Positions 18,210 to 28,733 of a DNA stretch of 41,584 nt are shown here, piece after piece. Source of the stretch: Bacillus sp. (in: firmicutes) (GTDB lineage Bacteria; Bacillota; Bacilli; Bacillales; Bacillaceae). A program made the position numbers and the translations under genes. How positions within the stretch are numbered: the first letter of the stretch is position 1; the number at the start of each line of letters is the position of its first letter. A model generated the notes under the pieces. It was not told the origin of the DNA. It did no database searches and was given only the letters and a program-made list of their open reading frames with translations. The stretch is taken from contig JAPSLL010000037.1 in NCBI GenBank assembly GCA_031180805.1, positions 1 through 41,584 of the forward strand. Direction: 5' to 3'.

Positions 18210-20138
18210 ATGTGTGGGTTTGTAGGTGGAATTTATTACGAGGAAACTGCAGTAGGTTCTTATCGAAATAGTTTATTTCAACAGGCGAATGACTTAATCT
18301 ATCATCGCGGTCCTGATGATAAAGGGTATTACCATGATAGTCATATGTCGATGGCTTTCCGTAGACTAAGCATTATTGATATTGAAAATGGTCATCAACC
18401 ATTTCGATATGATAATGGAAGGTATATGATTGTTTTCAATGGTGAGATTTATAATCATACTGAACTACGTGAATGGTTAAAGCATATAGGGGTTGATTGC
18501 GAGACGAATAGTGACACAGAGGTACTAGTTGCTCTTTATGCAACAATTGGGAGCGAAGTTGTAGAGCGAATTCGTGGAATGTTTTCTTTCCTAATTTGGG
18601 ATTCTGTTGAGAAGACGCTGTTCGGTGCACGCGATCATTTTGGAATTAAACCACTTTATTATATGGATAGACAAGATGGGTTATTTTTTGCCTCTGAAAA
18701 TAAAAGCCTGTTACCGTTTATAAACAGCTATCGATTAAATGAACAGTCATTACAGCATTATTTTGCATTTCAATATGTTCCTGAACCATCGACAATGGAT
18801 ACAATTATCCAAAAGATACCTCCTGGTCACTACTTTGTGAAAAACATTAATGAAAAGGGGCTTAAGCTTACACCTTATTTTAAGCCGCATTTACAGCCAA
18901 AGTCTTTCACACATGAGGTAGATGAGATGAAGAAGATTCGCAAGACATTGACAGAATCAGTTGAAAAACATATGCGCAGTGATGTACCGGTTGGGGCATT
19001 TCTATCAGGTGGTGTTGATTCTACGATTATAGTGTCACTTGCGAAACAAATTCAACCAAAACTAAAAACGTTTACAGTTGGATTTGAATATGAGAAATAT
19101 AGTGAAGTAGATGTTGCTAGGAAAACAGCTGATATTCTTGGAACTGATCATACAACAGTATTAATTCAACCAGATGAGTTTATAAAGGAGCTCCCACAAA
19201 TTATATGGCATATGGATGATCCTGTTGCAGATCCTGCAGCAATTCCTTTATATTTTATTGCTCGTGAAGCGAGAAAAAATGTAACCGTTGTATTATCAGG
19301 TGAAGGTGCTGATGAATTGTTTGCTGGATATAATATTTATAAAGAACCATCCGATTTAGCTATGTGGCGATACATTCCTTCTATGATGAAAAAAATTCTT
19401 TTATCCTCTTCAAGTCGTATACCAGATGGGGTGAAAGGCAAAAGCTTTATTTATCGTGGCTGTACAAGCATATCTGACCGTTATATCGGAAATGCACATA
19501 TTTTTAAAGAGCTTGATATGGCACAGTTACTTAAATTCCCTTTAACGACAAACTTTCATCAAGTAACAGAACCGATATTTAAGACTTTGGGAGATTTAGA
19601 TGATGTGGCAAAGATGCAGGCTATTGATTTACATACATGGCTAAGAGGCGACATTTTAACAAAGGCTGATCGAATGACAATGGCGAATTCTCTAGAACTT
19701 AGGGTGCCATTTCTTGATAAAGAGGTATTTCAGGTAGCATCTAAACTTCCTTCTTCATCTAAGATCAATAATGGAGAGACAAAATGGATTCTTCGTGAGG
19801 CATTTAAGGATTTAATTCCTGAGCATATTGTAAATCGGAGAAAGCTAGGCTTTCCTGTCCCGATCCGAATTTGGCTGAAAAATGAGCTTTATGATTGGAC
19901 TGTTACTTTAGTGAATGATAGTCCAACTGACAATATATTAAACAAACAGTATATTAAACAATTGTTAAGTGATCATGCAAAAGGAAAAAATGACAATAGC
20001 CGGAAGCTATGGACTGTTATTACCTTCCTATTATGGCATCGGCAATTTATTGAAGGGCAAGTTCCTGATGCAATTCGTAATTCACAAAAAGGAACCTTTG
20101 TTTCTGAACCTGATAAAAAAACAGAAGCATTAATCTAA
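18210..20138 (+). CDS. asnB: Asparagine synthetase (glutamine-hydrolysing) AsnB
   Basis: Converts aspartate, glutamine and ATP to asparagine. It is 642 residues, close to B. subtilis AsnB. The N-terminal Ntn glutaminase domain starts with the required Cys2 (MCGFVGG), which fixes the start even though the ribosome site (GGGAATGG) is weak. Glutamine-site motifs RGPDDKGY, RRLSIID and NGEIYN follow. The C-terminal synthetase domain has the pyrophosphatase loop SGGVDST at 266-272 and the SGEGADELFAGY signature. The location next to metK agrees with B. subtilis asnB, whose product has been linked to peptidoglycan amidation in some studies. A terminator follows; no T-box or CodY-type site was identified upstream. 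Confidence 0.97.
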   Translation: MCGFVGGIYYEETAVGSYRNSLFQQANDLIYHRGPDDKGYYHDSHMSMAFRRLSIIDIENGHQPFRYDNGRYMIVFNGEIYNHTELREWLKHIGVDCETNSDTEVLVALYATIGSEVVERIRGMFSFLIWDSVEKTLFGARDHFGIKPLYYMDRQDGLFFASENKSLLPFINSYRLNEQSLQHYFAFQYVPEPSTMDTIIQKIPPGHYFVKNINEKGLKLTPYFKPHLQPKSFTHEVDEMKKIRKTLTESVEKHMRSDVPVGAFLSGGVDSTIIVSLAKQIQPKLKTFTVGFEYEKYSEVDVARKTADILGTDHTTVLIQPDEFIKELPQIIWHMDDPVADPAAIPLYFIAREARKNVTVVLSGEGADELFAGYNIYKEPSDLAMWRYIPSMMKKILLSSSSRIPDGVKGKSFIYRGCTSISDRYIGNAHIFKELDMAQLLKFPLTTNFHQVTEPIFKTLGDLDDVAKMQAIDLHTWLRGDILTKADRMTMANSLELRVPFLDKEVFQVASKLPSSSKINNGETKWILREAFKDLIPEHIVNRRKLGFPVPIRIWLKNELYDWTVTLVNDSPTDNILNKQYIKQLLSDHAKGKNDNSRKLWTVITFLLWHRQFIEGQVPDAIRNSQKGTFVSEPDKKTEALI

Positions 20139-20353: not shown

Positions 20354-21259
20354 ATGAATGCACAGTTTAATAAGCCAAAAGGGTTTGGTGACATATTAGA
20401 TTTTACGTTTCGACTTGCAAAAAATCGATTTATAGATTTCTTTTTAATTTTATTAATTCTAATTGGACCGATTTATTTAATACAGGCTATTATCTTATTA
20501 ATTGGCGGAACTAGTTTTTTCCGAGAAGATATTTTTGAAGGATTATGGTATGAACAGATATTTTTAGAACTTGAAAGCACCGGTTATGTTGATGCAGGCA
20601 TGATTGGATTAGGAGTAGGATATTTAATTCTCTTATTGTTAGGTGTCATTTTGTTACCAGTCGCACAGGCAGCCATTATTTTAGCAGTTAATCATATTAG
20701 AAAAAATGAAGAATTTACAGTAGGTTCTGTTATAAAGGCAGCATTCGTAAGATTTTTCCCATTACTAGGTAGCAGTATTTTATTTGGACTTATTTTTTTC
20801 GGTTTAGCAATTATTCCAATTTTTATTACGACATATTTAACAGGAATTGGGGTTGTTATTAACCCTGTTGTTGGGGTTTTAATAGGTATTGTTTTATTTT
20901 TAGGCTGTGCTGTTGGATATATTTATTTAATGGCAAGATGGAGCTTTTATTTTGCTTCTGTTACCTTGAAGGAAGGAGCTCCTGGTTTCGGAAGAAGTTG
21001 GCGATTAACGAGTAAACGAACATGGGTTATCATCGGTCTTTATATTATTTTTATGCTTATTATGATGAGTGTTAGCTATGCTGTTGAATTTTCAGTTGCT
21101 CTTCTTCTTGGCGGTAGCGTGCTTCAATCAATGATCGTCAATATTGTCACATTATTAACGACAATGATTTTCTCTATTGGATATGCTGTCATGTATTTCG
21201 ACTTGAAGCTTAGATATGATGCGGATGATTTAAAAGAAATGATTGAAGAATATAAATAA
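20354..21259 (+). CDS. Polytopic membrane protein, GPDPase-membrane-domain-like
   Basis: A 301-residue integral membrane protein with about six hydrophobic spans (near 28-50, 83-113, 132-160, 164-196, 226-245 and 255-282). It resembles the membrane domain attached to some glycerophosphodiester phosphodiesterases, but no catalytic domain is present. It starts FNKPKGFGDILDFTFRLAKNRF, and has the segment YFASVTLKEGAPGFGRSWRLTSKR, typical of this family. AAAGGAGG precedes the ATG. It is the first gene of the DUF4129/DUF4350/MoxR/DUF58 cluster; 115 bases separate it from the next gene. It probably shares the envelope role of that cluster. Confidence 0.75.
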   Translation: MNAQFNKPKGFGDILDFTFRLAKNRFIDFFLILLILIGPIYLIQAIILLIGGTSFFREDIFEGLWYEQIFLELESTGYVDAGMIGLGVGYLILLLLGVILLPVAQAAIILAVNHIRKNEEFTVGSVIKAAFVRFFPLLGSSILFGLIFFGLAIIPIFITTYLTGIGVVINPVVGVLIGIVLFLGCAVGYIYLMARWSFYFASVTLKEGAPGFGRSWRLTSKRTWVIIGLYIIFMLIMMSVSYAVEFSVALLLGGSVLQSMIVNIVTLLTTMIFSIGYAVMYFDLKLRYDADDLKEMIEEYK

Positions 21260-21374
21260 AAGTTAATAGGAAATGAGGAAATTTATCGAGAAATTTCCTC
21301 CCTCCTATAAAATCTACAGATAAGATTTAGAGATAAATTGTTAAATAGGTAGAAAACGAATAAGGGGGGGTTGT

Positions 21375-22019
21375 ATGTTAAATGAGGACCAAGCTAGAAA
21401 TGAATTAGAAAATATCTTAAACAGCAGAGAGTACAAAGTATATGAAGAAAAGCCAAAAAATATTTTTGAGCAATGGTGGGACGACCTTAAAGAATGGTTT
21501 ATTGACTTTCTTAATAGTATGTTTCCTTCTATTGAACTATCGAAGGATTATTCTGGAACCATTTTAATGATGATCATCGTTATTACGATTTTATTAATGA
21601 TCCTTCTTGTAACCCTTTTGATACGAAACCGCAATCGAAAAAAATCATTCCATTCGCATAAGCCTTTGCAATCGATAAATGAAATTGATTGGTCATATCA
21701 GATGCATTTATCAGAAGCTTTGAAGCAAGAAGGGCAAAAAGAGTACAAGCTTTCAACACGTCATCTCTTCCTTGCGTTATTACTCTATTTTCATGAAAAG
21801 GAATGGCTCGTAGCGAGGATATGGAAAACGAACTGGGAGTATTATGATGAACTAAAAAGTGTAAATCAGAAATGGGCAGAGCAATTTTATCATTTAGCTC
21901 TCATCTTTGATGAAGCAACGTATGGAGAAAAAAGCATTACGAAAGAGGAATATGAGCGGTTTAAAAAAGAAGCTATGAAATGGTTAGGTGATAACCGAGA
22001 GGAAAAGAAAAATGGGTAG
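21375..22019 (+). CDS. DUF4129-domain membrane protein
   Basis: A 214-residue protein with an amphipathic Trp-rich region (FEQWWDDLKEWFIDFLNSMF, about 31-50), one membrane span at 61-83 and a cytoplasmic DUF4129 domain with the pattern LSTRHLFLALLLYFHEKEWL and the C-terminal FDEATYGEKSITKEEYERF. AAGGGGGGG precedes the ATG. DUF4129 proteins are regularly encoded with MoxR ATPases and DUF58 proteins, exactly as here. Biochemical function is unknown; the single span with a cytoplasmic helical domain suggests a scaffold or membrane partner. Confidence 0.85.
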   Translation: MLNEDQARNELENILNSREYKVYEEKPKNIFEQWWDDLKEWFIDFLNSMFPSIELSKDYSGTILMMIIVITILLMILLVTLLIRNRNRKKSFHSHKPLQSINEIDWSYQMHLSEALKQEGQKEYKLSTRHLFLALLLYFHEKEWLVARIWKTNWEYYDELKSVNQKWAEQFYHLALIFDEATYGEKSITKEEYERFKKEAMKWLGDNREEKKNG

Positions 22020-22051
22020 TATCATTAATGGGAAAGGAGGAATAACAGGAA

Positions 22052-23188
22052 TTGCAAATATTATTTTCATATAAACGCAAATGGATAGTACTTTCGCTCC
22101 TCATCCTGATTATTATGATAAGCACTTATGTGATCAGTTCTGAAAAGCCAAAGAATTACCCGAGTTATGTTTCACATTCTCCTTCTCCAACTGGTGTGAA
22201 GGCATTTTATACATATTTAGATAAAGAAGTTGGTTCAGTAAGTCAATGGTCACTTCATCCAAATTTGTTACCAAAGGATGAGTCGAATCAATTATTGGTC
22301 ATGCTTGAACCAACTGTAATACCGAATTCTGATGAAATTAACGAATATATTGAATTTATGGAAGCGGGAAATACCATTCTATTATTTCAAGAAAATCCGC
22401 GAGATATTTTTGATTTGGCTATCCATTTCCTAGCAGATGCTGAGTCAGATAACCAATTGATTATTGGTCAGGATGGAAGAGAATATGAATCAGATCTACA
22501 TACGGATGTGATTTTACAACCGAACGAAGAGGATGAAGTGTTATTACATAATCAAGCTGGTTTGGCTGTAGCCATAAAAAGACAATATGGAAATGGTCAA
22601 CTAATTGTTGCGAATAATCCTAATTGGATGATGAATGAACATATTTTATCAGCCGACCATCTGCCCCTATTGATTACGTTATTTAATGAAATAGATGTAA
22701 ACAAGATTTACTTTAATGAGTACATTCATGGTGAGCAAGAAATATCGATAATCAATGTATATCCAAAATGGTTTTTGTTACTTATTATTCAAGGTACTAT
22801 TCTTATTTGCTTGCTGCTCTGGATACGTGGAAAACGTTTTGGGTTTAGCATGATTCCTCGTGAAGATATGGTTCGCTTTAGTGATGAAAGAATAAGAGCA
22901 CTTGCCTCTTGGCATTTAAAGAGTCAACGATATCATGATTCCCTTCAAATTCAGGCTGATTATGTAAAGCTATTATTACAGGAAAGATGGGGGATTTCAT
23001 ACAATCGGAGCTGGCTTGAAATAGAAGATAGGCTTGGAAGAAAGTGGAAAGGTGTTTCGGAACCAACGATTCATCAGTTTGTTACTGAACTTTCGAATTT
23101 ATTAAATGAAGAAAAAATATCTAAAAATGATTATGTATTTTGGTCTAAAAAACTAGAACAACTTAGGAAAGAGGTGGAGGAAGGATGA
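22052..23188 (+). CDS. DUF4350-domain membrane protein
   Basis: A 378-residue protein with an N-terminal span (12-29), an external domain of about 200 residues and a second span (239-258) followed by a cytoplasmic helical tail. The external domain looks like a Rossmann or glutamine-amidotransferase-like fold (SPSPTGVKAFYTYLDKE, LLVMLEPT, EAGNTILLF, GNGQLIVANNP), the usual DUF4350 signature. TTG at 22052 is chosen because AAAGGAGG lies eleven bases upstream; no ATG fits. Its end overlaps the moxR start by 4 bases (ATGA), showing translational coupling. Role unknown beyond membership of the cluster. Confidence 0.85.
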   Translation: MQILFSYKRKWIVLSLLILIIMISTYVISSEKPKNYPSYVSHSPSPTGVKAFYTYLDKEVGSVSQWSLHPNLLPKDESNQLLVMLEPTVIPNSDEINEYIEFMEAGNTILLFQENPRDIFDLAIHFLADAESDNQLIIGQDGREYESDLHTDVILQPNEEDEVLLHNQAGLAVAIKRQYGNGQLIVANNPNWMMNEHILSADHLPLLITLFNEIDVNKIYFNEYIHGEQEISIINVYPKWFLLLIIQGTILICLLLWIRGKRFGFSMIPREDMVRFSDERIRALASWHLKSQRYHDSLQIQADYVKLLLQERWGISYNRSWLEIEDRLGRKWKGVSEPTIHQFVTELSNLLNEEKISKNDYVFWSKKLEQLRKEVEEG

Positions 23189-24114
23189 ATAGCAAACTCA
23201 CATCCTTATTAGAGCAATATGAAAAGCAAATAAAGGGGCAAACCCTAAATATTAGACTTCTACTTTCCTCTGTACTAGCAGGCGGACATGTTTTATTAGA
23301 AGGTGTCCCAGGTACAGGGAAAACACAGATGGTTAAAACACTTTCAAGTTTAATAGGAGGCACATTTACACGAATTCAATTTACTCCTGATTTGCTTCCA
23401 AGTGATATTACAGGTAGTACGATTTATAACATGAAGGACAGTTCATTTCAAACGCTAAAGGGCCCGATCTTTACAAATATACTATTGGCGGATGAAATTA
23501 ATCGTACTCCTGCAAAAACACAAGCAGCTTTATTGGAAGCGATGGAGGAAAAGCAAGTTACAATCCAAGGTGAAACATATTCCTTACCAGATGTATTCTT
23601 TGTTGTAGCAACGCAAAACCCGATTGAATTCGAAGGTACATATCCACTGCCTGAAGCACAACAAGATCGTTTTCTATTCAAATTAAAAATAGATTTTCCT
23701 TCACTAGAAGAAGAGATAAATGTTTTAAAGGATGTTATCGAGAACAAGGAGAATCAAGAGCAATTAAATCCTGTTATTGATCTAGAGGAGTTTTTAACAA
23801 TAAAGAGGGAAATTGAGCAAGCTACGATAGGGGATAGCGTATTAGATTATATTGTAAAGCTTGTTCGTAGAACTAGAGAAACAGATGTATTACGGTTTGG
23901 TGCAAGTACTCGTGCAGCGATCTCAATTGGAAGAGCCGGAAAAGCATGGGCATATTTATCTGGACGAGATTATGTAACACCAGATGATATTAAGATGGTT
24001 GCTAAGCCTGGACTAAGACATCGTATTCAATTATCTCCGCATGTAGAATTGGAGGGAGCAACCGTTGACCAAATCATTGAAGAGCTTGTGGGGTCGATTC
24101 CTGTTCCAAGATAG
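23185..24114 (+). CDS. MoxR-family AAA+ ATPase
   Basis: A 309-residue AAA+ ATPase, thought to act as a chaperone that remodels or activates partners with von Willebrand-like domains. Walker A is GVPGTGKT at 40-47, Walker B is LLADEINRTP around 100-109, and sensor 1 lies in ATQNPIEFEG at 142-151; QQDRFLFKL is the usual arginine-finger segment. It overlaps the upstream gene by 4 bases and the downstream DUF58 gene by 50 bases, so the three are translated as a unit. The likely client is the DUF58 protein. The cytoplasmic location follows from the absence of any span. Confidence 0.93.
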   Translation: MNSKLTSLLEQYEKQIKGQTLNIRLLLSSVLAGGHVLLEGVPGTGKTQMVKTLSSLIGGTFTRIQFTPDLLPSDITGSTIYNMKDSSFQTLKGPIFTNILLADEINRTPAKTQAALLEAMEEKQVTIQGETYSLPDVFFVVATQNPIEFEGTYPLPEAQQDRFLFKLKIDFPSLEEEINVLKDVIENKENQEQLNPVIDLEEFLTIKREIEQATIGDSVLDYIVKLVRRTRETDVLRFGASTRAAISIGRAGKAWAYLSGRDYVTPDDIKMVAKPGLRHRIQLSPHVELEGATVDQIIEELVGSIPVPR

Positions 24115-25426
24115 AGGAATATTACCTACGAAGCGTTTAGCGCTTTTCTTTTTATGCTTATCAGTCCTATTTTTGCTCGGTTCATTTTGGAATATATCAT
24201 GGATATTTGTTATTTTTTTGAATGTGATATTTTTTCTTATAAGCTTTATCGATTTACTCTATTCACCTAAAAAAAATGAGTTGCATTTTAGGCGGTCAAT
24301 TCCAACAGAAATGGAAAGAGGATTAAAATATCAAGTTGAAATCTCGGTCAATAATGCATCAAATTATCCGTTAAACTTTCGCTTTGTTGATGGAATTCCA
24401 CAATCCTTTAAAAGGGATCAATTTCCGTTCAAAGGAAAATTGAGCGGGCAAACAAGTGGAATAGCTGCATATGAAACTGTAGCACCAGTTAGAGGAAAGT
24501 ATAATATTGAAAAGCTATATTTTCGTTATAAAAGTACATTTGGATTATGGGAGAAACAAGTAACTCTGGAACTTAAAGATGAGATAAAAGTGATACCTGA
24601 TTTAACAGAAACAAAAAGTTATTTAGAGGATGCTCAAAAGTTTTTACTACATGAAGGAATAAAAATCCGGAAACATCTAAGTGGAGCTGGAGAGTTTACA
24701 AAGGTTCGTAGCTTTGTAGTTGGTGATGATCCGCGGAAAATTAATTGGAGACAAACAGCAAAACTTCAAGAGGTCATGACAAATGAATACGAACCTGAGC
24801 ATGGAAAATATGTAACAATTTTAATTGATTGTGGAAGAATGATGGGTGCTGAGTTAAGAGAAACAAATAGGCTGGAAAAGGCTGTAGAAGCCTCGTTAAC
24901 AGTTGCAGCGGCAGCTCTGCAAAAAGGCGATTATGTCTCAATTCTTGTGTTTTCCAAGGATATTAAAGTATATGTTCCTCCAGCTAAAGGGATGGCCCAT
25001 TTGCAAACGATTCTTCAAGCGGTCTATGATGTTCAGGTTGACCAAGCTGAATCTAATTTTGCAGCTGTTTTTACTTATTTACAATCACTTCAGAAAAAGC
25101 GTAGTTTTATTATGTTATTTAGCGATATTCGAACGTTTTTGTATGAAGAAAGTGCACTTATCTATTTAAAAAGAATTAGACAGCGTCATTATTTCTTGAT
25201 GATCGGGATCGAGGATGAATTGATTAAAAAGAAAATAAGACAACAGCCAATAGATGTTGAGCATGCGATGGTAAAAAGTATTGCACAGCAGCAAATGCTG
25301 ATGACAAAAAGGGAAAAAGCAAAATGGGAAAAACAAGGCCTCCAAATGTTGGAGGCAAAGGAAGACAAGTTAGCTACAGTAGCTGTTTCTCAGTATATTG
25401 ACATTATGAATCGAGGGCTTCTGTAG
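24065..25426 (+). CDS. DUF58-domain membrane protein
   Basis: A 453-residue protein with two spans near the N-terminus (about 25-43 and 45-65), an extracellular or beta-rich section, then the DUF58 hallmark VRSFVVGDDPRKINWRQTAK (212-233) leading into a vWA-like domain. The start is TTG at 24065 because GGAGGGAG lies six bases upstream; this puts the first 50 bases inside moxR. The position where a vWA domain normally has DxSxS reads DCGRMM (255-260), so the metal-ion site is not canonical. The end overlaps the converging SpoIIM-like gene by 23 bases. The pair MoxR/DUF58 is widespread; it probably acts on the cell envelope, but that is inference. Confidence 0.88.
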   Translation: MTKSLKSLWGRFLFQDRGILPTKRLALFFLCLSVLFLLGSFWNISWIFVIFLNVIFFLISFIDLLYSPKKNELHFRRSIPTEMERGLKYQVEISVNNASNYPLNFRFVDGIPQSFKRDQFPFKGKLSGQTSGIAAYETVAPVRGKYNIEKLYFRYKSTFGLWEKQVTLELKDEIKVIPDLTETKSYLEDAQKFLLHEGIKIRKHLSGAGEFTKVRSFVVGDDPRKINWRQTAKLQEVMTNEYEPEHGKYVTILIDCGRMMGAELRETNRLEKAVEASLTVAAAALQKGDYVSILVFSKDIKVYVPPAKGMAHLQTILQAVYDVQVDQAESNFAAVFTYLQSLQKKRSFIMLFSDIRTFLYEESALIYLKRIRQRHYFLMIGIEDELIKKKIRQQPIDVEHAMVKSIAQQQMLMTKREKAKWEKQGLQMLEAKEDKLATVAVSQYIDIMNRGLL

Positions 25427-26381
25427 CAGCTCTTCTTTTTTGGAGAAGCTGATTTCCGATAAACAAATAGACGATTAATGCAATAATTGTTACAAATGCA
25501 ACAAAGTACTTAACTTCAAGTGGGATATTTGCAGGAGTAATAAATCCTTCAATAATTGCTGCGATAACAAATAAAGGAATTGTTCCTAACAAAAGCTGAA
25601 CTGAGCGTTTTGCCTGTTGTTTTAGATGAAACGTTCTTGAATAAGGGCCTGGAACAAGAAGCTTGTATCCCATTAGCAGGCCTGCACCACCTGCAATAAA
25701 AATAGCGGTTAACTCGATCATTCCATGTGGGACAATATATGCCCAAAATTCATACATCATTCCGTGCTGATAGAATACTGCTGCAAGTGCACCGATAATG
25801 ATTCCATTATAGAGTAATAAATAAACGGTAAATATGCCAAACGTAATTCCACTTGCAAAAGCTAAAATAGCAACTTGAATATTATTTGTCATAATTTCGG
25901 CAGACATGGTAGGTGCATCGACCTGGCCCTCTCCAAGCTGATCGGGATTTATCCCATAAGCTATATCAGCTGGAAGAATTGAATAAAGATTAAGTGAGTC
26001 GTTCATTACCGCAGCATAGCTACCAATACCACCAAGGGTGAAGATGAGCATGGCAATAAAGCTAAACTTCCACTGAGCGATAAATAAGCCAATGAATGTA
26101 GTGCTAAAGAAATGCTGAATTTGTTTAAAACTAGAAATTTGATCTTTGTACAGTAAATTATGTGCTTTTGAAACAAGTCCATTTAAATATGGAGTTACTT
26201 CTTCATCCGGAAAGTATGTTTGACTGTATGAAAGATGCTGTGCTGACTTTTGGTATAGACGATTAAATCGCTCGATCATTTTGCTTGTAGCAGTCCGTTT
26301 ATTTTTATGTAAGTTAGTAATCATATTTTCAAGCTCTTTCCATTCATCACGATGTTGCTTTACAAATTGCTTTATATTCAT
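25404..26381 (-). CDS. SpoIIM/DUF95-like membrane protein
   Basis: A 325-residue protein with a cytoplasmic helical N-terminal third (about 1-95) and five or six membrane spans in the remainder. It belongs to the stage II sporulation protein M (DUF95) superfamily; HGMIELTAIFIAGGAGLLMGYKLLVPGPYSR is the characteristic region (about 220-250). AGAAGGTG precedes the ATG. It is not the sporulation spoIIM itself, which is shorter and lies elsewhere. It converges on DUF58 with a 23-base overlap and diverges from the RDD gene, a gene set that recurs in many phyla together with MoxR/DUF58. Function unknown. Confidence 0.85.
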   Translation of the reverse strand: MNIKQFVKQHRDEWKELENMITNLHKNKRTATSKMIERFNRLYQKSAQHLSYSQTYFPDEEVTPYLNGLVSKAHNLLYKDQISSFKQIQHFFSTTFIGLFIAQWKFSFIAMLIFTLGGIGSYAAVMNDSLNLYSILPADIAYGINPDQLGEGQVDAPTMSAEIMTNNIQVAILAFASGITFGIFTVYLLLYNGIIIGALAAVFYQHGMMYEFWAYIVPHGMIELTAIFIAGGAGLLMGYKLLVPGPYSRTFHLKQQAKRSVQLLLGTIPLFVIAAIIEGFITPANIPLEVKYFVAFVTIIALIVYLFIGNQLLQKRRAATEALDS

Positions 26382-26498
26382 TATGGCACCTTCTTATTTT
26401 CGGATTGACTAGAAAAAAATGGTCTCTTTATATTATAGTAATTTTATAGAAAAATAGGAATAAGTACAGGTAAATATAACCAAAAAGAGGTGATGGTT

Positions 26499-27308
26499 AT
26501 GCAACAAGAACAAATAAATATAAAAACACCAGAATTTGTTTCACTTCAATTTCAAACTGCAGGGCTTGGAAGTCGAGCAGCTGCATTTTTAATTGACTAT
26601 ATTATTTTATCGATAGTAAACATTATTATAATCGTCGGATTAATTTTTGCTTTATTTGGCGCTAGTTCACTTGATATGGTTATGATTGAGGAAACATTCA
26701 CTTTTCAAATCGCTATAGCATTAATTCTACTCTTTCTCATAAACTCTAGTTATTTTGTAGTTCTGGAATATTTTTCAGGTGGAAAAACGCTTGGCAAACG
26801 AATGGTTGGTATTCGCGTTATTCAAGATAATGGTCATAGCTTAACGCTATTATCGAGTTTCATCCGAAATTTATTAAGAATTATTGATTCTTTACCAATG
26901 TATTATTTATTGGGGATTTGTATGGTTTTCTTTCATTCGAAAAATAAACGAATAGGTGACCTTGTTGCCGGAACGGTTGTCGTCCATGAAAGACGAAGAA
27001 AGAAAGCAAAAAAGCTAACAGAAGTGGAGAAAGAAATAAATAGTAGAGGAATAACTAAAGAAGACTTAGTGATTGAAGATTGGCTTTTTCGCTCTTTAGG
27101 GACAAAGGAATGGAATCTTGTTAAAACCTATTGTCATCGTTTCGTTCAACTACCTTCAACTCAAAGGAATGAACTAACGAATGAAGTCGCAAAAATTATC
27201 TTTCCTAAAATCGGCATTACGTTAGAGGGAAAACAGATTCATGAGATCGAGAATACATTATTTATCCTCTACTTAAAGTTAAAAGAGGAGTGGGAAATCG
27301 AATTATAA
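26499..27308 (+). CDS. RDD-family membrane protein
   Basis: A 269-residue protein starting at the ATG at 26499, six bases after AAGAGGTG; two earlier in-frame starts overlap that site. Three to four spans (about 27-52, 70-93 and 123-143) carry the RDD family residues (GLGSRAAAFLIDYIIL with Arg-Ala and Asp, and later KTLGKRMVGIRVI, LLRIIDSL, RIGDLVAGTVVV). The last third (about 165-269) is a charged soluble domain. It is divergent from the SpoIIM-like gene, and completes the MoxR/DUF58 cluster. Some RDD proteins are sodium/proton antiporters, but no specific role is assignable here. Confidence 0.87.
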   Translation: MQQEQINIKTPEFVSLQFQTAGLGSRAAAFLIDYIILSIVNIIIIVGLIFALFGASSLDMVMIEETFTFQIAIALILLFLINSSYFVVLEYFSGGKTLGKRMVGIRVIQDNGHSLTLLSSFIRNLLRIIDSLPMYYLLGICMVFFHSKNKRIGDLVAGTVVVHERRRKKAKKLTEVEKEINSRGITKEDLVIEDWLFRSLGTKEWNLVKTYCHRFVQLPSTQRNELTNEVAKIIFPKIGITLEGKQIHEIENTLFILYLKLKEEWEIEL

Positions 27309-27314
27309 CGATTA

Positions 27315-27345
27315 AGAAACAGCTGAAAAGGCTGTTTTTTTTATT
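27315..27345 (+). terminator. Terminator after the RDD gene
   Basis: The perfect stem AAACAGC/GCTGTTT (27317-27323 with 27331-27337) is followed by eight or more T residues. Confidence 0.88.
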
Positions 27346-27434: not shown

Positions 27435-28733
27435 ATGAATACCAGAATTAAGCCTATTCAAAAGGTATCTGTACAATTGTTAATAACCTTGATTATTTTA
27501 GTAGTTGTTATGACTAGTTCAATTGGATTATTAGGTTATTTATTCGCCGAGAATGCGATAGAAAAGGGGTCAGCAGCTGGGTTTTTATGGATAATTCTTG
27601 GTGTAACAGCTGTTATTACGATTATGTGCTCTGCTATTTTGTATTTCCTTTTAATAAGAAAGGTGAAATCATTAAATGAATTGGTAAAAGCTTCGACACA
27701 GATGGCTGAAGGTAATTTGTTGGAAACTCCTTTAAAAGAAGGAACAGATGAAATTGGTTTACTTGCCAAGTCATTTAATCGAATAAATGATGGACTTCGC
27801 GGATTTTTTCGTAATTTACTTGAAACTGGACAATTATTGGACAAATCTTCAAATGAATTATCGTCGTTATCTGAGTTAACAAAAGTTACAAGTCAGGAAA
27901 TTGGCACGGCATTGAATGAGATTTCGCGAGGTTCTACATCTCAAGCTTCTGATATTGAAGCGACAAGTCATAAAGCAAATGATTTGCAAGAAAGCATAAA
28001 TAAAATGTCTATGGAAAGTAATGGAATTATTCAATTAACTGAAGACTGTGCGAAAGCCGTCGAAACAGGAAAGGAAAGTGTAACTGGACTACAAGCATCT
28101 AATAAAGAGAATAGTGATATGTTAGAGCAAATTAGCATCGGTATCACAACACTTTTCCAAAGTGTTGATCAGATTTCAGGTATCGTTACAACGATTGATA
28201 ATATATCCAAACAAACAAATTTATTAGCATTAAATGCAAGTATTGAGGCAGCTAGGGCTGGAGAGCATGGAAAAGGATTTGCTGTTGTTGCTGAAGAGGT
28301 ACGTAAACTTGCAGAAGAGACAAACCAGGCTACATCACAAATCCAATCAATGATTCAAAACATTGAAAAAGAAACGGAATCAACTGTGCTTATTATGGCT
28401 CAAACAACTGAAATCTCCAATGGGTTAAATAAAAGTGTCGTTGATACAGAAAATGAATTTAATCATATTTCAACATCAATTAATAAAATTATCGAGGGAA
28501 TTTCCAAACTCAATAATGAAATTGATAAAGTATCAGCAAATAGTACTGTTATTTTAGATTCAATCCAGAATGTTTCTGCGGTAGCGGAAGAAACGGCTGC
28601 ATCAACAGAACAAATTACAGCTTCTGTTGATGAACAGGTTCAAACGATTGAAGCAATTAATGAATCCTCTACAACAATTCGAGAAATTAGTGCAAAAATA
28701 AATGATATCGTTATTAATATTGCAGAAAAATAA
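27435..28733 (+). CDS. Methyl-accepting chemotaxis protein without external sensor domain
   Basis: A 432-residue chemoreceptor. Span one (about 12-35) and span two (49-74) are joined by only about 13 residues, so there is no extracellular ligand domain. A HAMP domain (about 75-127) and a long coiled-coil signalling domain follow; the hairpin tip has [21 protein letters not shown] and [14 protein letters not shown] (about residues 258-300), which contacts CheA/CheW. GAGGGAG precedes the ATG. Regulation is by a sigma-D-like promoter. It may sense membrane state, respond through HAMP, or work with a separate sensor. The assignment to the receptor family is certain. Confidence 0.95.

Follow-up and report, generated by a model that had tools for sequence, protein, structure and literature searches.

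A block of seven genes occupies positions 20354-27308 of contig JAPSLL010000037.1 from Bacillus sp. (assembly GCA_031180805.1), a stretch of 41,584 nucleotides that was analyzed whole and is called the window below. Open reading frames (ORFs), Pfam matches, and hydropathy indicate six membrane proteins and one ATPase: a polytopic membrane protein, a DUF4129 protein, a DUF4350 protein, a MoxR AAA+ ATPase, a DUF58 protein with a von Willebrand A (vWA) domain, a long-type SpoIIM, and an RDD protein (Table 1). An initial annotation, made from the letters alone, had proposed these genes as an undescribed envelope machine; its genes, coordinates, and domains agree with our ORFs and Pfam results except for the label of the first gene, and its count of six membrane proteins around one ATPase is borne out by a Kyte-Doolittle scan in which only MoxR lacks membrane segments. 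Our results support a genuine multigene membrane module that is inherited largely as a unit. The module is real, conserved, and under-studied, and not wholly undescribed.

Table 1. Features of the seven-gene block and of its intergenic and terminator-like elements in the window (E, Pfam E-value)
Feature	Position	Strand	Evidence
First gene, polytopic membrane protein, distant GPDPase membrane-domain likeness	20354-21259	+	weak Pfam
DUF4129 protein	21375-22019	+	Pfam E 8e-6
DUF4350 protein	22052-23188	+	Pfam E 6e-21
MoxR AAA+ ATPase (AAA_3 + AAA_lid_2)	23185-24114	+	Pfam AAA_3 E 3e-64
DUF58/vWA protein	24065-25426	+	Pfam E 3e-24
Candidate SpoIIM terminator, hairpin + T-run, within DUF58 3′ end	25338-25356	-	6/8 genus loci
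Long-type SpoIIM, 325 amino acids	25404-26381	-	Pfam E 8e-42
Weak terminator-like hairpin at DUF58 stop	25413-25434	+	3/8 genus loci
Candidate shared promoter, divergent SpoIIM/RDD intergenic region	26382-26489		ATTATAGT in 8/8 genus loci
RDD membrane protein	26490-27308	+	Pfam E 2e-23
Terminator-like hairpin 3′ of RDD	27314-27340	+	hairpin search

The first five genes run in one direction. DUF4350 and MoxR share an ATGA at 23185-23188, and MoxR overlaps DUF58 by 50 bases, the latter starting at a TTG with a GGAGG site 5′ of it; the same 50-base overlap recurs in 7/7 genus relatives read. SpoIIM lies on the minus strand, tail-to-tail with DUF58 (23-base overlap) and divergent from RDD, with 108 bases between them; the gap grows to 117 if RDD begins at ATG 26499, which its ribosome-binding site suggests is probably the start instead of GTG 26490. 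We infer two probable transcription units, one made up of the first five genes (the MoxR unit) and the other of the divergent SpoIIM and RDD. Both the ATGA and the 50-base overlap had been pointed out before and read as strict stoichiometric coupling, a reading that we drop: such overlaps allow translational coupling of neighbors and are silent on stoichiometry, and SpoIIM is on the other strand. Likewise, the described run of five genes stands, but it had gone unstated that SpoIIM is antiparallel and that the seven genes therefore do not all run the same way. The SpoIIM/RDD intergenic region is a candidate shared promoter. Its 8-mer ATTATAGT is invariant in 8/8 genus loci, all of which also contain a conserved AAAAATAG block, and the reverse complement of the 8-mer contains TATAAT, so that one element could act in both directions. 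Conservation of the candidate SpoIIM terminator could stem from the coding constraint on DUF58.

Within the genus, DUF4350, long SpoIIM, cluster-type DUF58, and the first gene all occur in the same 8/21 genomes. Cluster-type DUF58 scores 804-830 bits and the first gene 403-437 bits in these eight, while the other 13 genomes hold no DUF4350 match and reach at most 40.5 bits for SpoIIM, 55.6 bits for DUF58, and 20.1 bits (one genome) for the first gene. For two independent genes, an identical 8-in-21 set would arise by chance once in 203,490, a figure that ignores relatedness and is therefore too strong. At the family level, DUF4350 exceeds its cut-off in 8/80 genomes, which are also those with long SpoIIM (476-496 bits; remaining SpoIIM ≤59 bits). 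All 21 genus genomes additionally carry a second, low-scoring DUF58 (22-56 bits), the TgpA context of which was read in the window's own genome only. Gene order and orientation of the block agree in the window and seven genus relatives, and flanking genes vary. The independent distribution of genes named earlier as a check is thus not what the genus displays, with one locus (L061, below) counting on the other side.

Linkage extends across the phylum. Among 398 genomes sampled, long SpoIIM (≥297 bits; the next match, at 117 bits, is a short form) is present in 15, and MoxR, DUF58, and RDD adjoin it in 15/15, with SpoIIM inverted in seven (G000, G356, G225, G091, G182, G295, G424), collinear 3′ of DUF58 in six (G090, G176, G210, G264, G446, and G169, where the locus is cut by a contig end within MoxR), and collinear 5′ of the MoxR unit in two (G451, G389). 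As a control, two short-SpoIIM loci (L158, L159) had no MoxR, DUF58, or RDD neighbors. DUF4350 exceeds its cut-off in 24/398 genomes, from which 13 stretches were read, plus G424 via its SpoIIM; the SpoIIM/RDD pair is present in 11/13 of these stretches. In L057, L058, L060, and L072, every gene of the set runs in the same direction, and neighbors overlap or almost do. L061 (G344; L061:4188-8711) has a five-gene MoxR unit in which a 208-residue MoxR ORF overlaps DUF4350, and L064 (G471) holds only a 1,949-residue ORF and no module.

Comparable sets in distant phyla, which the initial annotation had claimed, are found in Actinomycetota and in Prevotella, Catenovulum, Rhizobium, and Paracoccus. 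Three actinobacterial SpoIIM queries yielded the best 80 loci by similarity, which are not an even sample. RDD was detected in 78 of them (the exceptions are L122 and the short contig L087), and in each case it diverges from SpoIIM. DUF58 was found in 41, of which 40 have it antiparallel to SpoIIM; the remaining one, L114, has a flipped SpoIIM/RDD pair. The full set of seven was found in 32 loci, 31 of which have the order and orientation of the window. Among the 39 loci without DUF58, 37 are from Streptomyces and 36 end ≤1.1 kb past SpoIIM; DUF58 was not found in the sequence past SpoIIM in L098 (9 kb), L149 (5.5 kb), and L113 (2.6 kb). A 16S-23S-5S operon lies between SpoIIM and DUF58 in Streptomyces L133 (L133:10602-15675), and ribosomal RNA genes lie past SpoIIM in Streptomyces L098 (L098:12413-15682). 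A ribosomal RNA repeat there would explain why many other Streptomyces contigs break within a few hundred bases of the SpoIIM end.

Plasmid-collection records, eight of which were read among 61 with a match, show further arrangements. Nonomuraea has the same layout as the window, and Nocardia has a flipped SpoIIM/RDD pair with DUF4350 not found. Arthrobacter carries the RDD/SpoIIM pair alone, with no MoxR unit within 9 kb, and Bernardetia (L066) has RDD/SpoIIM only. Prevotella has a divergent RDD followed by SpoIIM, DUF4129, DUF4350, MoxR, and DUF58; Catenovulum has RDD, SpoIIM, an unnamed gene, DUF4350, MoxR, and DUF58; and Rhizobium and Paracoccus share a collinear run of DUF805, two genes, MoxR, DUF58, SpoIIM, and RDD. 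The pair of genes between DUF805 and MoxR matches, in Rhizobium, DUF4129 and DUF4350 just below the curated cut-offs. SpoIIM and RDD are both present in 106/109 loci, divergent in 95, on one strand in 11, and convergent in none (this set omits L066 and L068, both divergent, and counts near-identical and same-genome loci separately). In the 95 divergent loci, the aligned starts lie 23-449 bases apart (median 133). The junction between DUF58 and an inverted SpoIIM is far more variable, with an overlap of 41 bases at one extreme and a gap of 5,775 bases at the other. Orientation changed at least six times on a tree of 43 loci, and we therefore do not call the ancestral state.

MoxR has AAA_3 and AAA_lid_2 domains with its conserved motifs intact in alignment, and 2r44 is its top-scoring solved relative. 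As in MoxR/vWA co-chaperone pairs, a vWA partner (DUF58/VWA_2) lies beside it. The DUF58 protein begins with a hydrophobic stretch (residues 18-68), probably two transmembrane segments (TMs), followed by the DUF58/vWA domain. The first motif of the metal ion-dependent adhesion site (MIDAS) in this domain is degenerate in the window (D255-C-G-R-M), and the canonical DxSxS is absent from 68/68 cluster DUF58 proteins compared to 20/27 other DUF58 proteins that have it. The motif is D-x-G-R in 58 cluster proteins, D-x-S-R in five, D-x-A-R in three, D-x-G-K in one, and D-x-G-H in one, which gives an arginine in 66/68; at the place of the second serine, threonine is found in 37/68, serine in one, and methionine, leucine, valine, or another residue in the rest. 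The 68 comprise 27 loci outside the actinobacterial scan, window included, and 41 from it, leaving out L059 (split) and L061. The comparison proteins are the best 30 of a longer match list, so weak DUF58 proteins are under-represented, and 3/30 proved to be of cluster type and were set aside. In L059 (G210; L059:3923-5241), DUF58 is encoded by two overlapping ORFs, possibly a frameshift or sequencing error.

These motifs suggest a degenerate metal site at which weak metal binding may persist and where the arginine perhaps stands in for the metal ion. NorD reportedly requires an intact MIDAS to yield active enzyme, and this site probably holds the client, whereas NorQ binding does not depend on it (PMC9976466). 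By analogy, contact between MoxR and DUF58 is still plausible in the cluster, and client holding probably differs from that of NorD. Remodeling of the vWA-like DUF58 by MoxR, as first predicted, therefore stays plausible, except that the canonical metal motif by which NorD probably holds its client is missing.

The remaining membrane proteins are less familiar. The first gene, initially labeled GPDPase-type, has no Pfam match at E ≤ 0.01; its likeness to the membrane domain of glycerophosphodiester phosphodiesterases (GPDPases) is weak in the window copy (E 0.015) and recurs at E ≤ 0.1 in 9/13 aligned relatives (best 4e-6), and Pfam reports no catalytic phosphodiesterase domain. We therefore do not class it as a GPDPase, and the label conveys no more than a remote resemblance in the membrane domain. 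In G225 (L053:3749-5837) this gene is duplicated in tandem. The DUF4129 protein has an N-terminus of about 57 residues, one TM (57-87), and a helical DUF4129 domain that, judging from positive charges, is thought to be cytosolic. DUF4350 has an N-terminal TM, an alpha/beta outer domain (32-218), a second TM (239-259), and a helical tail (277-377) that is likewise thought to lie in the cytosol. In its structure model (predicted local distance difference test, pLDDT, 82), the predicted fold of the outer domain matches IFT52, OST, and ThuA domains and is of the alpha/beta type of the IFT52 N-terminal domain. We take this GldG/IFT52-type domain to be the one known as GIFT. SpoIIM (model pLDDT 91) has an N-terminal helical extension of about 95 residues, and most short SpoIIM proteins align to it only from about residue 70-105 onward; N167, N192, H219, E223, and E278 are also retained in two short SpoIIM proteins. 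The RDD protein has a hydrophilic C-terminal extension of about 100 residues. Bernardetia SpoIIM (L066:9001-10854) is 617 residues long, with no Pfam match in its C-terminal half.

The block shares parts with several known systems. Operons of DUF4350, vWA, and AAA genes and, separately, SpoIIM-vWA-AAA neighborhoods were tied to secretion or membrane remodeling in 2015, the latter described as never accompanied by other surface proteins (PMC5898192). Archaeal arCOG01314 systems likewise encode, in one operon, a MoxR-type AAA+, a vWA protein, and a DUF4350 protein with an outer flavodoxin/GldG-like domain and a C-terminal TM (PMC5898192), whereas the cluster adds SpoIIM, RDD, and a helical tail after the DUF4350 TM, and Pfam finds no S-layer/Ig-like COG4743 partner among its seven genes and three flanking genes. 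The predicted DUF4350 fold extends the sequence-level likeness described there. The mycobacterial moxR2 locus, Rv3689-Rv3695, has a membrane protein (Rv3689), DUF4350 (Rv3691), MoxR (Rv3692), DUF58 (Rv3693), an inverted SpoIIM (Rv3694c), and RDD (Rv3695), a layout equal to that of the window as far as the published table goes, Rv3690 being absent from it (PMC8191103). In the papers found, no function is assigned to this locus, and the earlier statement that no function is agreed for such sets holds. A TgpA-type locus in the window's genome (L052:4414-8800) has MoxR, DUF58, and a transglutaminase membrane protein with a C-terminal DUF4129; it differs from the cluster in that a transglutaminase replaces DUF4350 and no SpoIIM is seen, and Pfam reports no transglutaminase core protein in the cluster. 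NorQ-NorD, RavA-ViaA, and CbbQ-CbbO also pair a MoxR ATPase with a vWA partner, but the cluster DUF58 is membrane-anchored and lacks DxSxS. Sporulation SpoIIM, of the DMP engulfment complex, has the same membrane domain as the cluster form, which differs in its extra N-terminal helical domain and its neighbors.

Published hints lean towards the envelope without naming the step. Rv3694c and Rv3695 are among 19 coimmunoprecipitation partners of the divisome protein Rv0954 (PMC8093794), SpoIIM (formerly DUF95) is linked to immunity and circularization in circular-bacteriocin clusters (PMC5695211), RDD is described as having a site within the membrane that faces the cytoplasm (PMC12419801), and an interaction with the wall hydrolase RipA was reported for MoxR1, which lies beside another DUF58 (cited in PMC12067865). 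Literature searches turned up no published account of the co-inheritance of the set, of its two-unit layout with a SpoIIM/RDD pair that nearly always stays together, or of the degenerate metal motif. The novelty first claimed is thus retained for these features and is qualified by the related contexts in PMC5898192.

One possibility, which we favor with somewhat less than even confidence, is that the seven genes are one member of an old, widely shared module encoding, in two linked transcription units, an ATP-driven membrane machine that would remodel the cell envelope. A cytosolic MoxR ring would hydrolyze ATP and work on the adjacent, membrane-anchored DUF58, an adaptor whose degenerate metal motif would imply that partners are held otherwise than by NorD-type vWA proteins. 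Force would be transmitted to the tails of DUF4129 and DUF4350 in the cytosol, and also to the additional domains by which cluster SpoIIM and RDD differ from stand-alone copies, while the DUF4350 outer domain might read a glycan or other envelope ligand. The outcome would be a switched or reshaped SpoIIM-RDD membrane core governing an envelope step, for example lipid, peptide, or cell-wall traffic. A bolder version, which we consider doubtful, is an ancient envelope machine in at least four phyla that combines a vWA protein free of metal-dependent client binding, perhaps with arginine replacing the metal, a glycan-reading outer domain coupled through the membrane to the MoxR ring, and a SpoIIM-RDD output pair, the two genes of which are nearly always side by side and mostly share one divergent control region.

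Direct results cover the genes and their domains, the linkage, the altered motif, and two predicted folds, whereas complex formation among the products, the path of force, the ligand, and the envelope step are inferred. Several observations pull the other way. The block is missing from 13/21 genus genomes. L061 lacks SpoIIM and RDD in the 4.2 kb 3′ of DUF58, and Arthrobacter has the SpoIIM/RDD pair without the MoxR unit, which indicates that the units are separable. Parts of the metal motif persist (aspartate in 68/68, threonine in 37/68 as above), and the third-motif D is present in 38/68 cluster proteins and 22/27 others. The alpha/beta fold matched by DUF4350 is widespread and proves no ligand. 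Profile comparison of the cytosolic tails found no significant kinship, leaving a common docking domain unsupported. Two neighbors among 19 membrane-rich partners of Rv0954 are weak evidence.

Among other explanations, a membrane-stress or immunity module, in which the SpoIIM-RDD core exports or neutralizes membrane-active peptides or lipids and MoxR/DUF58 act as a gate, is unlikely but draws on several lines. Besides the bacteriocin link of SpoIIM (PMC5695211), arc2, an operon of a MoxR-like ATPase and a VWF-domain protein, is among the antagonism-resistance clusters of P. aeruginosa (PMC8926400), and patchy presence in 8/21 genus genomes fits an accessory trait. Near-fixed order across Actinomycetota loci is less typical of fast-turning defense loci. 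Slightly less probable is a secretion or assembly system for surface proteins. This was predicted for DUF4350, vWA, and AAA operons, and the likeness to GldG and beta-galactosidase described there agrees with our DUF4350 fold matches (PMC5898192). However, the archaeal sets include Ig-like and S-layer genes, none of which are reported among the seven, and that source treats SpoIIM neighborhoods apart and describes them as never occurring with other surface proteins.

We give the same low weight to the view that the two units are independent and merely close, one being a MoxR-DUF58 chaperone operon and the other a divergent SpoIIM/RDD pair that does a different job. Opposite strands in the window, each unit occurring alone within the stretches read (Arthrobacter, L061), and an often wide junction between DUF58 and inverted SpoIIM, up to 5,775 bp with a ribosomal RNA operon inside, compared to a divergent SpoIIM-RDD gap that never exceeds 449 bp in 95 loci, fit such a separation. 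Joint presence in the genus, 15/15 adjacency in the phylum, and the collinear, overlapping or near-overlapping genes of L057, L058, L060, and L072 argue for linkage. A chaperone for cofactor insertion or enzyme activation, of the NorQD or CbbQO kind, would have the same MoxR and vWA pairing, but is quite improbable given that the DxSxS needed intact by NorD (PMC9976466) is absent from 68/68 cluster DUF58 proteins. Nor does Pfam report a metalloenzyme gene among the seven. Rhizobium, Mycobacterium, and Prevotella are not known to form endospores, and a sporulation device is barely credible given that the longer, distinct SpoIIM type of the cluster occurs in records of all three, even though sporulation SpoIIM, the source of the name, belongs to the DMP engulfment complex (PMC5898192).

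Chaperone motors that pair MoxR with a vWA protein are widespread, yet clients are known for few of them. The module joins such a pair to fixed membrane partners in distant phyla, including mycobacteria and Streptomyces, and the client may therefore well be encoded next door. It also offers a role to seek for SpoIIM and RDD outside spore formers, and D-x-G-R in DUF58 together with long SpoIIM is a simple sequence mark that may tell this system apart from the remaining MoxR loci.

Genes around the block differ among genus relatives. In the window it is flanked by AsnB (18210-20138) and a chemotaxis receptor (27435-28733), neither of which is present in the stretches read for L045-L048; there, the neighbors are MetK/YtkA (YtkA alone in L048) and a glycosyltransferase. 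At locus L052, a GMP-synthase-like ORF, named by eye, sits next to MoxR-DUF58-TgpA, and a 155-residue RDD gene is located upstream on the opposite strand.

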